From a virus: a stretch of 21,450 nucleotides of DNA. A model generated the notes under the pieces. That model saw only the letters and a list, made by a program, of their open reading frames with translations. It did no database searches and was not told where the DNA came from. The stretch covers positions 1 to 21,450 of IMG/VR virus record IMGVR_UViG_3300037042_000974; one strand, written 5' to 3'. Shown piece after piece: positions 15,158 through 21,450 of the stretch; the stretch's first letter is position 1, and each line of letters opens with the position of its first letter. The translations under genes and the position numbers were made by a program.

Positions 15158-15293
15158 GGCGATCTGCGGCGCAACCGAGGCGGCGCGGACGGAACATGCG
15201 GCGGCTCTGGCTGACGATGGCGGGCCGCTTTCTCTGGTCACGGGCGCGCGGCTGATCCGCCTGATCGATGCCGGGTGTGCCAATGACACCTAG
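15066..15293 (+). CDS. Rz1-like outer-membrane lipoprotein (o-spanin), overlapping Rz
   Basis: Read in the +1 frame relative to the i-spanin, the frame from ATG 15066 encodes 75 residues. A hydrophobic signal sequence ends in a lipobox, LPVTGC with Cys24 as the lipidated residue, and is preceded by basic and aromatic residues (MLRHANAWTRW). The mature 52-residue part (VSVASGEAICGATEAARTEH ..) is short, as in o-spanins, though not Pro-rich like lambda Rz1. Overlap of Rz1 with the 3' part of Rz in a different frame is a known arrangement. Longer in-frame starts (14985) would spoil the signal peptide. Its TAG overlaps the start of the next gene. Confidence 0.8.
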   Translation: MLRHANAWTRWAACLMLTLPVTGCVSVASGEAICGATEAARTEHAAALADDGGPLSLVTGARLIRLIDAGCANDT

Positions 15294-16425
15294 ACAACAA
15301 AAGGCCGTCGAGGTGTTCAAGCGCACGGGCAACGTGTCCGAGGCGGCGCGCGAGTTTGGCATCAATCTGCGCGACTTTATCCGGCTGCTAGACCGCGCGG
15401 GCTTTACGCCAGATGTTCGAAAAGATTACCGGATAGATCCCGCCATCGCTGACAGCATGAAGGCCGTTGGCACAAACATGGTCCCGTCGCTGGCTTGGGT
15501 GAAGGTTCCGGCCAAAGACGAGGAGCCTGGCTATTCCGTCATGCTGCGCCCCGAGGCAGAGCAGCCAGAGGCCGTCGCTGATCGCATACGCGCGGCGCTG
15601 GAGGGCATGGTGCCTGCCGAGCCTGTGCCGGCACCTGAAAGCGTCATGGCCGATCTGTGCGCCGTTTATCCACTCATGGACGCCCACGTCGGGATGATGG
15701 CGTGGGGTCGCGAAACAGGCTCACAGGACTATGACCTCGGCCACGCGGCTCAGGACATGCGGCACGCCTTTGGCAAGGTGCTGGCGCTCACGCCTGCCGC
15801 CGAGCAGGCTGTCTTGCTGATCGGTGGCGATTACTTCCACAGCGACGACACCAGATCCGAGACGCCTGCCAACCGCCACAAGCTGGACGTTGACGGGCGC
15901 TTCTGGAAGGTGCTTGACGTTGGCATCGGGATAATCGCAGAGACCATCCACAAGCTGCTCCAGAAGCACGCCAACGTGCTGGTGCGCGTGCTGCGTGGCA
16001 ACCATGATCCGCACAGCAGCATGACGCTCAACTTCGCCCTGGCAGAGCGTTATCGCAATGAGATCCGGGTTTCTGTTGAGAAAGATCCGCGCGATCTGTT
16101 CATGCTGCAATGGGGCAAGTGCGCGATCTTCGCCCACCACGGGGACAAGGGAAAGCCGCAGCAGATGGCGCTCTACTTGTCGGATGTCTGCCCGTTCTGG
16201 TCGCAGACGCGCCATCGGCACTATCTGACGGGCCACGTCCACCATGACCAGGCCAAGGATCTCGGGCCGCTGCGCTATGAGAGCCTGCGCGCATTCTGTC
16301 CGCCCGACGCTTATGCCGCCGGCATGGGATATGGTGGCCGACGTGCTTTGCAGTCTATGACTTTCCACAAAGTGGACGGTCTTGTCATGCGGGCGTTGGA
16401 CCCGATCGATAGGTTTTTGGATTAG
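15283..16425 (+). CDS. Metallophosphoesterase with N-terminal helix-turn-helix
   Basis: The 380-residue product combines an HTH-like segment at residues 10-42 (FKRTGNVSEAAREFGINLRD) with a calcineurin-like phosphoesterase domain at about 125-365. The metal and catalytic motifs are all present: D133-x-H135 (MDAHVG), G182-D183 (IGGDYFHSDD), G239-N-H-D242 (RGNHDPHSS), H285-H-G-D288 and G317-H-V-H320. This set is shared with Mre11/SbcD-type nucleases and other phosphoesterases; phages carry similar proteins labelled as metallophosphatase or putative exonuclease. No SbcC-like partner is in the window. ATG 15283 overlaps the o-spanin stop; an in-frame ATG at 15268 is less likely. It closes the late operon, immediately before the structured element. 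Confidence 0.82.
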   Translation: MTPRQQKAVEVFKRTGNVSEAAREFGINLRDFIRLLDRAGFTPDVRKDYRIDPAIADSMKAVGTNMVPSLAWVKVPAKDEEPGYSVMLRPEAEQPEAVADRIRAALEGMVPAEPVPAPESVMADLCAVYPLMDAHVGMMAWGRETGSQDYDLGHAAQDMRHAFGKVLALTPAAEQAVLLIGGDYFHSDDTRSETPANRHKLDVDGRFWKVLDVGIGIIAETIHKLLQKHANVLVRVLRGNHDPHSSMTLNFALAERYRNEIRVSVEKDPRDLFMLQWGKCAIFAHHGDKGKPQQMALYLSDVCPFWSQTRHRHYLTGHVHHDQAKDLGPLRYESLRAFCPPDAYAAGMGYGGRRALQSMTFHKVDGLVMRALDPIDRFLD

Positions 16426-16426
16426 T

Positions 16427-16527
16427 CGCGAGGGGCGCTAAGGTTAAACCGAGCCGTAGCGCGAACATGGTTATCGACCAACACAAAGCAACCCGTGACG
16501 GTTTCTTGTTTGTGTGCGCCCCTCGCG
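16427..16527. other. Long inverted repeat with nested hairpins at the convergent junction
   Basis: A perfect 12-bp inverted repeat, CGCGAGGGGCGC (16427-16438) and GCGCCCCTCGCG (16516-16527), begins one base after the phosphoesterase stop and ends 14 bases before the stop of the leftward operon. Inside, 16481-16491 (ACACAAAGCAA) pairs with 16506-16515 (TTGTTTGTGT), ten pairs with one bulged G and directly adjoining the outer 3' arm. TGGT/ACCA (16468-16471/16477-16480) forms a small hairpin directly adjoining that one. It could be a bidirectional terminator or processed RNA end, or a small structured RNA. No T-run follows the outer stem in either direction. Confidence 0.6.
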
Positions 16528-16541
16528 GGTTTCGTATCAAA

Positions 16542-16853
16542 TCACCCCTGCGCCTGCAACCTCTTTTGATGCTCGATTTCGTCCAGGGCGCGCTGAATTG
16601 CAGCCTTGCTGGCAGACAGCTTGACCTTGGGTTTGGTTTCGCCGTCGATCACGTCAACCCACACCTTACTCTTCGGGCTGACACGTTGCGGCGAGAACGG
16701 GTGCATGGGCAGCGTGATGCCGAAACGCTCGCAGGCGGATGCGATGCTGGATCTGTGCATTCCGTAGTGGGCCGCTGTGAGTGTAAGATGCCAACCCTTT
16801 TCACGGGCGGCGGTCAGCATGTCTTTGGTGATGTGGCGTCTAGGCGGTGCCAT
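16542..16853 (-). CDS. Small HTH-like protein, last gene of the leftward operon
   Basis: The 103-residue product has a probable helix-turn-helix at residues 10-47 (ITKDMLTAAREKGWHLTLTA, then AHYGMHRSSIASACERFGI) followed by a Lys-rich linker (SPQRVSPKSKVWVDV) and a charged C-terminal helix (SASKAAIQRALDEIEHQKR). It probably binds DNA as a small regulator or a recruitment factor, but I cannot name a family. AAGGA lies eight bases before ATG. It starts within the end of the gene upstream (14-base overlap). Confidence 0.7.
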   Translation of the reverse strand: MAPPRRHITKDMLTAAREKGWHLTLTAAHYGMHRSSIASACERFGITLPMHPFSPQRVSPKSKVWVDVIDGETKPKVKLSASKAAIQRALDEIEHQKRLQAQG

Positions 16854-19869: not shown

Positions 19870-20088
19870 ATGATGGCTCAAACTCAAATCCGGCTATGGT
19901 GCGCGCAGGACGGGCGCAAACTTGGCTGGCTCGCAAAAAAAGTGCCGGTCGCCAACTCCAGCCTTTCCCGCTGGATGACGGGCCGCGTCGTGCCGTCCGC
20001 AGTTTACCGCCACCGCCTGGCCGACATCACCGGGATCGAGGATCTGCGGTTTGAAGAAGAATGGATCGCAGAAGGAGCAATGTCGTGA
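19870..20088 (+). CDS. Cro/repressor-like HTH protein (72 aa)
   Basis: The product (MMAQTQIRLWCAQDGRKLGW ..) has an XRE-type helix-turn-helix at about residues 17-50: KLGWLAKKVPVANSSLSRWM then TGRVVPSAVYRHRLADITG. The 'LAKK..V.NSSLSRWMTGR..P' run is the recognition unit. Its size suits Cro or a small repressor lacking a dimerisation domain. AAGGAG lies seven bases before ATG 19870; a second ATG follows at 19873. It is transcribed away from the leftward operon over a symmetric operator, so it probably controls the early switch. The stop overlaps the next start (GTGA). Confidence 0.75.
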   Translation: MMAQTQIRLWCAQDGRKLGWLAKKVPVANSSLSRWMTGRVVPSAVYRHRLADITGIEDLRFEEEWIAEGAMS

Positions 20089-20591
20089 GCGAATGGGAGC
20101 CTTCGCAGGGAAAAACCGACGAATGGTTTACGCCGCGTCATGTGTTTGACGCGCTTGGTGTCGCGTTCGACATCGACGTTGCAGCGCCTCACGGCGGCCC
20201 CCGTCATGTCCCATGCACCTCTTACCTGACAGCTTCGCAATGCGGCCTGAAAACTCCTTGGGCCGATTGCTTTGTCTGGATGAACCCACCATTCGGCGGG
20301 CGCAACGGGCTTGTGCCTTGGCTGGATAAGTTTTTCAGCCATGGCAATGGCATCGCGCTGACCCCGGACCGCACCAGCGCGCCATGGTGGCAGGACGCGG
20401 CAAAGCGTGCCGATGCGATCTTGCTGGCCCGTGGAAAGATCAAGTTTGAACGGGCAGACGGATCAATTGGCAAATCTCCCGGCTCTGGCGTCACACTGTG
20501 GGCAGCAGGCGGGAAAGCGATGCACGCACTTTTCACAGCGCAAAAGGCTGGGCTTGGCTCAGTTTGGCTTCAACACAAGGGAACAGCATAA
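20085..20591 (+). CDS. DNA N6-adenine methyltransferase (phage Dam type)
   Basis: The 168-residue product carries the catalytic NPPF at residues 67-70 (VWMNPPFGGRNGL) and a preceding motif 'EWFTPRHVFDAL..FDIDVAAP', both typical of the phage Dam family (DNA N-6-adenine-methyltransferase, Pfam PF05869). It would transfer methyl from S-adenosylmethionine to adenine in phage DNA, to guard against restriction or mark DNA for regulation. The site specificity is not readable. GTG 20085 is chosen as start: it overlaps the previous TGA (GTGA), and GGAG lies at the right distance; an in-frame ATG at 20061 lies within the regulator gene. No matching restriction enzyme is in the window. Confidence 0.85.
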   Translation: MSEWEPSQGKTDEWFTPRHVFDALGVAFDIDVAAPHGGPRHVPCTSYLTASQCGLKTPWADCFVWMNPPFGGRNGLVPWLDKFFSHGNGIALTPDRTSAPWWQDAAKRADAILLARGKIKFERADGSIGKSPGSGVTLWAAGGKAMHALFTAQKAGLGSVWLQHKGTA

Positions 20592-20860: not shown

Positions 20861-21074
20861 GCGATCAAAAGCCGAATGGGAATGCCTGCGCGCTTCGGCG
20901 GGCGGGCACGAACCTTCGCATGCGCAAAAGGTCGCCACGATCATCAGCGTGACAGAACTCAAAGGCTATATGCTGCAACTGCACAAAGAAGGGCGGCTCG
21001 ATGAGGCCGCCCGCTCTGACATCCAGCGACGCCTTTCCGAATTGGAAATCTTCTACGGGCGCAAGCTGGCCTAG
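20850..21074 (+). CDS. Hypothetical early protein (74 aa)
   Basis: From GTG 20850, which overlaps the preceding gene by 11 bases and has GGGACGG upstream, the product reads MKVERSKAEWECLRASAGGH, EPSHAQKVATIISVTELKGY and MLQLHKEGRLDEAARSDIQR. It is helical and charged, without membrane segment. An ATG-started frame from 20805 would lie largely within the neighbour. Its TAG stop shares the CTAG at 21071-21074 with the oppositely directed nuclease gene. No family recognised. Confidence 0.65.
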   Translation: MKVERSKAEWECLRASAGGHEPSHAQKVATIISVTELKGYMLQLHKEGRLDEAARSDIQRRLSELEIFYGRKLA

Positions 21075-21450
21075 TCGCTGGCCGCGATCCAAGCGTGAAG
21101 CGCCTGCCATGCAGCGTCACAGCCCAGCGCCACGCAGGCAAACGCGCCGGCATTCGCGGCAGCCTCAAGATACTCGCGCTGTCCGTCCTGCCAGCGCCCT
21201 TGCGTTGGGTCGCGGCGCTTCAACTCGCAAACAAATGTCACCCGCCCCGGAATGATGATGTCGGCAGCGCCTGACACCATGCCCTCGGCCTTATGCCTCG
21301 CAATCGCGCCAAGCTGCCCGCCAGCGCGCAAGCCCTCGTTTCTCGGGTGGATGGCCAGCGCGCCCCAGGTCGCCCCGTATTCGCGCCGCAATCGCGCGAA
21401 AAACGTGATCTGCTCCTGCGCCTCGGTCGCGCACTTTCCGCGATAGTCCA
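21071..21450 (-). CDS. VRR-NUC-type nuclease, C-terminal part (5' end outside window)
   Basis: The reverse-strand frame is open from the right edge and ends TAG at 21071-21073. Motifs of the VRR-NUC (PD-(D/E)XK-like) family are visible: an N-terminal 'DYRGK..TEAQEQITFFARL', 'LAIHPRNEGLR', 'GMVSGAADIIIPGRVTFVCE' with the metal-binding Asp and the ELKR (E-x-K) pair, and 'QREYLEAAANAGAFACVALG'. These enzymes are structure-specific DNA nucleases, in phages probably for junction resolution or repair. A TTG at 21391 is not a start, since conserved sequence continues upstream of it. The N-terminus lies beyond 21450. Confidence 0.8.
   Translation of the reverse strand, partial: DYRGKCATEAQEQITFFARLRREYGATWGALAIHPRNEGLRAGGQLGAIARHKAEGMVSGAADIIIPGRVTFVCELKRRDPTQGRWQDGQREYLEAAANAGAFACVALGCDAAWQALHAWIAASD

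Follow-up and report, generated by a model that had tools for sequence, protein, structure and literature searches.

A candidate small RNA gene with its own promoter and a three-way-junction fold, found in P22-like phages and a second phage lineage

The packaging RNA (pRNA) of phage phi29 has ends that pair with each other and contains a three-way junction. This junction is named in PMC9305526. Several trans-encoded small RNAs of phages have also been described, including P22 sar (68/69 nt), P1/P7 c4 (77 nt) and lambda PreS (approximately 88 nt), all of which are described as acting on mRNAs (PMC12197685). In phage HK022, the structured putRNA is produced close behind a phage promoter (PMC9378689). 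Trans-acting structured RNAs of phages are few, and most are tied to single model phages.

A further candidate was found in the window (the whole 21,450-nt stretch analysed here), an IMG/VR virus fragment of a P22-like phage as judged from its stabilisation/Hc3 protein (phrog_578). The element quite probably represents an independently transcribed, trans-acting structured RNA gene, and is best read as a member of a not previously described family of stand-alone phage sRNA genes with their own promoter. Like sar, c4 and PreS, it would be a non-coding phage RNA, similarly short and presumed to act in trans. Unlike those RNAs, which belong to single phage groups, it spans unrelated lineages and folds into a closed three-way junction whose apex is conserved, and it lacks a terminator or U-tail. 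The paired ends and three-way junction are shared with phi29 pRNA; however, no Rfam sequence or model match was obtained, and the carriers have P22-type or other terminase and portal machinery. The element lies beside terL and the portal gene in one lineage and at the border of the late and early regions in the other.

The outer stem is a perfect 12-bp inverted repeat (16427-16438/16516-16527), located exactly where the original prediction had placed it. It is the sole perfect non-palindromic pair of 12 or longer in the window with arms no more than 150 nt apart. As had also been noted, the element nearly fills the convergent gap, which extends from the exonuclease stop at 16425 to position 16542, where the leftward gene for the 103-aa protein ends. 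Folding of 16417-16537 gave -48.0 kcal/mol on the plus strand (z -2.9; 2 of 200 shuffles as good) and -45.8 kcal/mol on the minus strand (z -4.1; 0 of 200). Both strands thus beat shuffled sequence, the minus strand by more, and the predicted 95-nt RNA (16524-16430, minus) had a fold z of -2.8. The coordinates of all features are collected in Table 1.

Table 1. Features at and around the predicted RNA gene (positions in the window)
Feature	Position	Strand	Remarks
Convergent neighbour, DNA repair exonuclease (phrog_704)	15268..16425	+	Relatives have endolysin, phrog_8198 or others instead
Predicted structured RNA, 95 nt, +1 at about 16524	16430..16524	-	Pairing statistics, promoter distance, fold z -2.8
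P1 closing helix, 3' arm GCGCCCCUC	16430..16438	-	Stem continues to 16427
P2 arm: GGU/ACC (P2a), AACC/GGUU (P2b), 6-nt bulge AUGUUC, apical GCGC(UACG)GCUC	16442..16479	-	Consensus arrangement
Apical hairpin GCGC-UACG-GCUC	16451..16462	-	Most conserved part of the RNA
P3 hairpin ACACAA...UUGUGU, inner helix closing on AACC/GGUU	16481..16515	-	Fold; 4 of 5 modelled pairs changed on both sides
P1 closing helix, 5' arm GAGGGGCGC	16516..16524	-	Stem continues to 16527
Predicted -10 hexamer TACGAA, 17-nt spacer	16531..16536	-	Promoter pattern in homologues
Upstream neighbour, 103-aa protein, weak HTH_28 match	16542..16853	-	E 0.015, below cut-off; overlaps promoter -35
Predicted -35 hexamer TTGCAG	16554..16559	-	Inside the final codons of the 103-aa protein gene

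Homologues were found at more than 80 viral loci, in which the three-way-junction fold is kept and the sequence is not. In relatives of the flanking exonuclease, the element stands immediately behind the exonuclease gene or is separated from it by a small ORF, and its inner sequence is altered; many further contigs with the element were found by pattern scans. Some loci represent one contig twice; 80 distinct element sequences were aligned to fit the model structure (alignment A3). The structured RNA proposed in the original prediction is strongly supported by the abundant compensatory changes in these homologues, the lack of which had been named there as grounds for refutation. Double changes occurred at 20 of 29 pairs in A3, compared with 9.1 in shuffled alignments, none of 500 reaching 20; many of the homologues are from related, partly clonal phages, and the alignment cells are not independent events. 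Paired cells amounted to 91.3% (35-56% in slid versions), and the covariation score was 0.193, compared with 0.124 for shuffles and at most 0.08 for slid controls. Changes on both sides were seen at 10 of the 12 pairs of P1, and all six modelled pairs of P2b covary. Among the P1 variants are GAGGGAAGC/GCTTCCCTC (L030 and L227), GAGGGAGCGC/GCGCTCCCTC (L228), TGAGAGGCGC/GCGCCTCTCA (L128) and TGATGGGCGC/GCGCCCATCA (L058).

In its general form on the minus strand, the RNA consists of P1 (GAGGGGCGC/GCGCCCCUC and variants), P3, and a P2 arm of the type UUGGU.../...ACCAA. The distal helix of P2 changes freely but in a compensatory manner, and is followed by the 6-nt bulge and the apical GCGC-UACG-GC hairpin. 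At the apex, GCGCUACGGCU did not vary across the 55 sequences of alignment A1, and the loops CACG or UACA were seen solely in divergent members. P3 is highly variable in length, and reliable conservation of the outer stem is restricted to its inner 9 bp. The family ranges from about 72 to 102 nt in length; this range and the lack of triplet periodicity argue against coding. The original three-way plan stood in its parts, since the outer stem, the adjoining hairpin and a further hairpin were all found, but the conserved inner arrangement differs: the long P2 arm closing on the GCGC-UACG-GC apex is evident from the homologues and not from the window alone. The lowest-energy fold of the window sequence has a competing UGGU/ACCA hairpin in place of P2. 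In RNAalifold, a UGGU/AUCA hairpin that is retained in most sequences likewise competes with P2, and a two-state switch between P2 and this hairpin is possible.

Upstream of P1 on the minus strand, every one of the 80 aligned homologues has a sigma70-like promoter, TTGnnn-N16-18-TAnnnn. The distance from the end of the -10 hexamer to the first core base of P1 was 5-9 nt in 80 of 80, and this base was G in 73. Of 39 non-redundant upstream contexts, 38 showed the pattern, the sole miss (L235) being a misplaced anchor, but the contexts with the helix-turn-helix gene share homologous -35 sequence, which leaves about ten truly independent promoter contexts. Controls gave 0 of 44 for the plus-strand flank, 2 of 195 for displaced windows and approximately 1 of 39 for shuffles. 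Pairing was kept at the first core pair in 79 of the 80 sequences and at the three pairs outside it in 68, 47 and 50. Because of the promoter position, this change in pairing at +1 and the fading of sequence conservation over the roughly 9 nt that follow P1, transcription most likely begins at P1, and the mature RNA most likely ends just beyond it.

Other measures also favour the minus strand. Read as that strand, the wobbles comprise 85 G-U and 31 A-C cells. RNAalifold gave the alignment -23.6 on the minus strand and -18.3 on the plus strand, and covariance-model matches scored 37-100 bits as minus compared with 20-26 for the identical places as plus. The wobble count, in which the fitting of A3 also favours the minus strand, and the model scores lean this way since the minus strand served to build the model; the promoter evidence is independent. 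The models (R1 and R2) were built from pattern-chosen sequences, and the E-values of their training members mean little. The predicted functional strand is the minus strand. The original prediction had seen the structure and missed its strand, its promoter and the wider family.

The same observations bear on the reading of the locus as a DNA element that folds when single-stranded, such as an attachment site, a replication origin or a recombination joint. The element does sit at operon borders, and phage modules have been exchanged around and within it. Such an element would have no need for a positioned promoter, however, and the minus-strand reading gives G-U rather than A-C wobbles. An attP site was rejected, as a tyrosine integrase was found in none of 10 related records (the window itself not among them), compared with 14 of 14 controls. 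A role purely as DNA is hardly credible. Two resemblances on the plus strand were likewise discarded. The loop CGTAGCGCAGTCTG, which we took to resemble a tRNA D-arm, is broken in several members (GTTCGCGC, CCGCGCC, CGGCGC) and lies opposite the transcribed minus strand; CTGATGA, suggestive of a hammerhead, occurs in some copies and is not conserved.

The other possibility raised in the original prediction, a bidirectional terminator, which would here act where the late and early operons converge, is very improbable. With intrinsic terminators the element shares a strong GC-rich stem and, in P22-like phages, the position in a convergent gap, and 5 of 29 plus-strand contexts have a T-rich tract behind the stem. 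On the transcribed minus strand, in contrast, no T-tract followed the stem in any of 30 contexts, and no intrinsic terminator was detected within 200 nt downstream of the RNA in any of 78 cases. Within the window, the absence of a T-run that had been remarked upon holds for both sides. Also, the loop is tens of nucleotides long with conserved internal structure, the element carries its own promoter, and in the second lineage it is found upstream of the portal gene and not between convergent genes.

The predicted RNA stands at the start of its transcript and is, like HK022 putRNA, structured and promoter-proximal. It could therefore be a cis-acting 5' leader for downstream genes, either a put-type antiterminator or a translation regulator, and in the terL/portal lineage, L137, L240 and L254 the next gene is indeed on the RNA strand and has a ribosome-binding site. 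This reading is unlikely for the family as a whole, although a cis role is conceivable at those loci. HK022 put acts in cis on early operons, whereas in most members of the present family no gene on the RNA strand follows; the window and most relatives have convergent neighbours, and only antisense of late genes lies downstream. The portal genes of the second lineage have, by eye, a further promoter-like sequence between the RNA and their start codons, and conservation of the downstream sequence ends at about +9.

Two of the features expected of a stand-alone sRNA gene, a dedicated 5' promoter and a covarying secondary structure, were recovered at the level of sequence, and the stand-alone gene is the reading followed here. 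On the comparative evidence, the host-type sigma70-like promoter at 16531-16559 would drive minus-strand transcription from about 16524. The ends of the RNA would pair as P1, enclosing a three-way junction with a variable P3 and a conserved P2 that carries the 6-nt bulge and an apical GCGC-YACR-GC hairpin. Transcription would pass P1, and since no terminator lies downstream, the 3' end would presumably be trimmed back to the GC-rich P1 stem. The RNA would act in trans, as only antisense of late genes is found downstream in the window and most P22-like relatives. Given the conservation of the apex, the P2 apex and bulge may be where a partner binds, a host protein being the likeliest, and the RNA may be a host-takeover or counter-defence effector that is carried like a moron. 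This protein-binding, host-directed step is a tentative proposal. It is similarly conceivable, with no greater confidence, that the RNA is the first member of a class of RNA effectors found in phages alone. Such a compact RNA would use its bulged apical hairpin to bind a conserved host protein (e.g. RNA polymerase, an RNase or a defence factor) and either disarm or hijack it, and would have spread horizontally as a cassette between unrelated phages. An RNA cassette common to lineages with few common genes would point to a host component that all of them encounter. The strong covariation, built-in promoter and presence or absence across unrelated lineages make the RNA directly searchable, expressible and assayable, and the conserved apex provides a concrete handle for a partner search.

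The promoter and fold are both kept in two non-homologous gene settings. In P22-like carriers, the RNA lies where the leftward early region ends, facing the last late gene (exonuclease, endolysins and others), and behind the 103-aa family with its weak helix-turn-helix match or unrelated small genes; a homologue of the 103-aa protein precedes it in most P22-like contexts. In the second lineage, whose terminase has relatives in the Pelagibacter phages HTVC027P and HTVC023P, it lies between terL and the portal gene on the strand of those genes, and at several loci an intrinsic terminator precedes the RNA promoter. Divergent terL/portal copies that had been outside model building were found afterwards in the same place and orientation. 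A second promoter-like sequence was observed 10-40 nt after the RNA and before the portal start in L126, L189, L223 and L256, with the form TTGCTA-N17-TAAGGT in the first three.

One copy per genome was present in 19 of 24 records and none in the other 5. The RNA is absent from some relatives, such as L313 and the 50%-identity relatives L319 and L321. In L301, where the portal gene starts at 2223, only the 3' arm of P1, some 100 nt ahead of that start, AGCGCCCCTCGC, is left between the terminator and the portal gene, an apparent decay in which the rest of the RNA was deleted. Its absence in some relatives, together with this remnant, points to a dispensable cassette.

Searches beyond these loci gave no further carriers. 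In the window, no match to any family of Rfam 15 reached the gathering score (one chance match, E 5.9, lay near the locus), and ARAGORN found no tRNA or tmRNA. No element was detected by DNA similarity in named phages and plasmids, nor with R2 in the scanned parts of the nearest named relatives. With R1, 367 genomes from a single bacterial class, centred on a Rhizobiales record, gave no match, a weak negative because the search had no positive control, and pattern matches in bacterial genome contigs look like chance, none having the P1 stem. No description of the RNA was found in the open literature, although an earlier listing under another name is possible. The promoter style, which we take to be alphaproteobacterial, and the related isolates suggest an alphaproteobacterial host and are the only basis for this assignment.

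Several minor observations were made at and around the locus. Break points lie inside the RNA between L026 and L024 and between L018 and L017, one half (5' or 3') being common and the other different, and phage modules thus seem to recombine through the RNA. The 103-aa protein family is almost confined to these phage contigs, usually beside the RNA; one distant relative is in GenBank (MW202675.1). A DNA methyltransferase (phrog_111; 20061-20591, plus strand) and a phrog_824 protein with no function assigned (21071-21391, minus strand) are also encoded in the window's early region. In the terL-portal interval of one carrier phage, a tRNA-Met (CAT) gene (L305:2792-2866, plus strand) adjoins the RNA a few bases from its 3' side on the same strand, and RNase P could for this reason set the 3' end of the RNA there.
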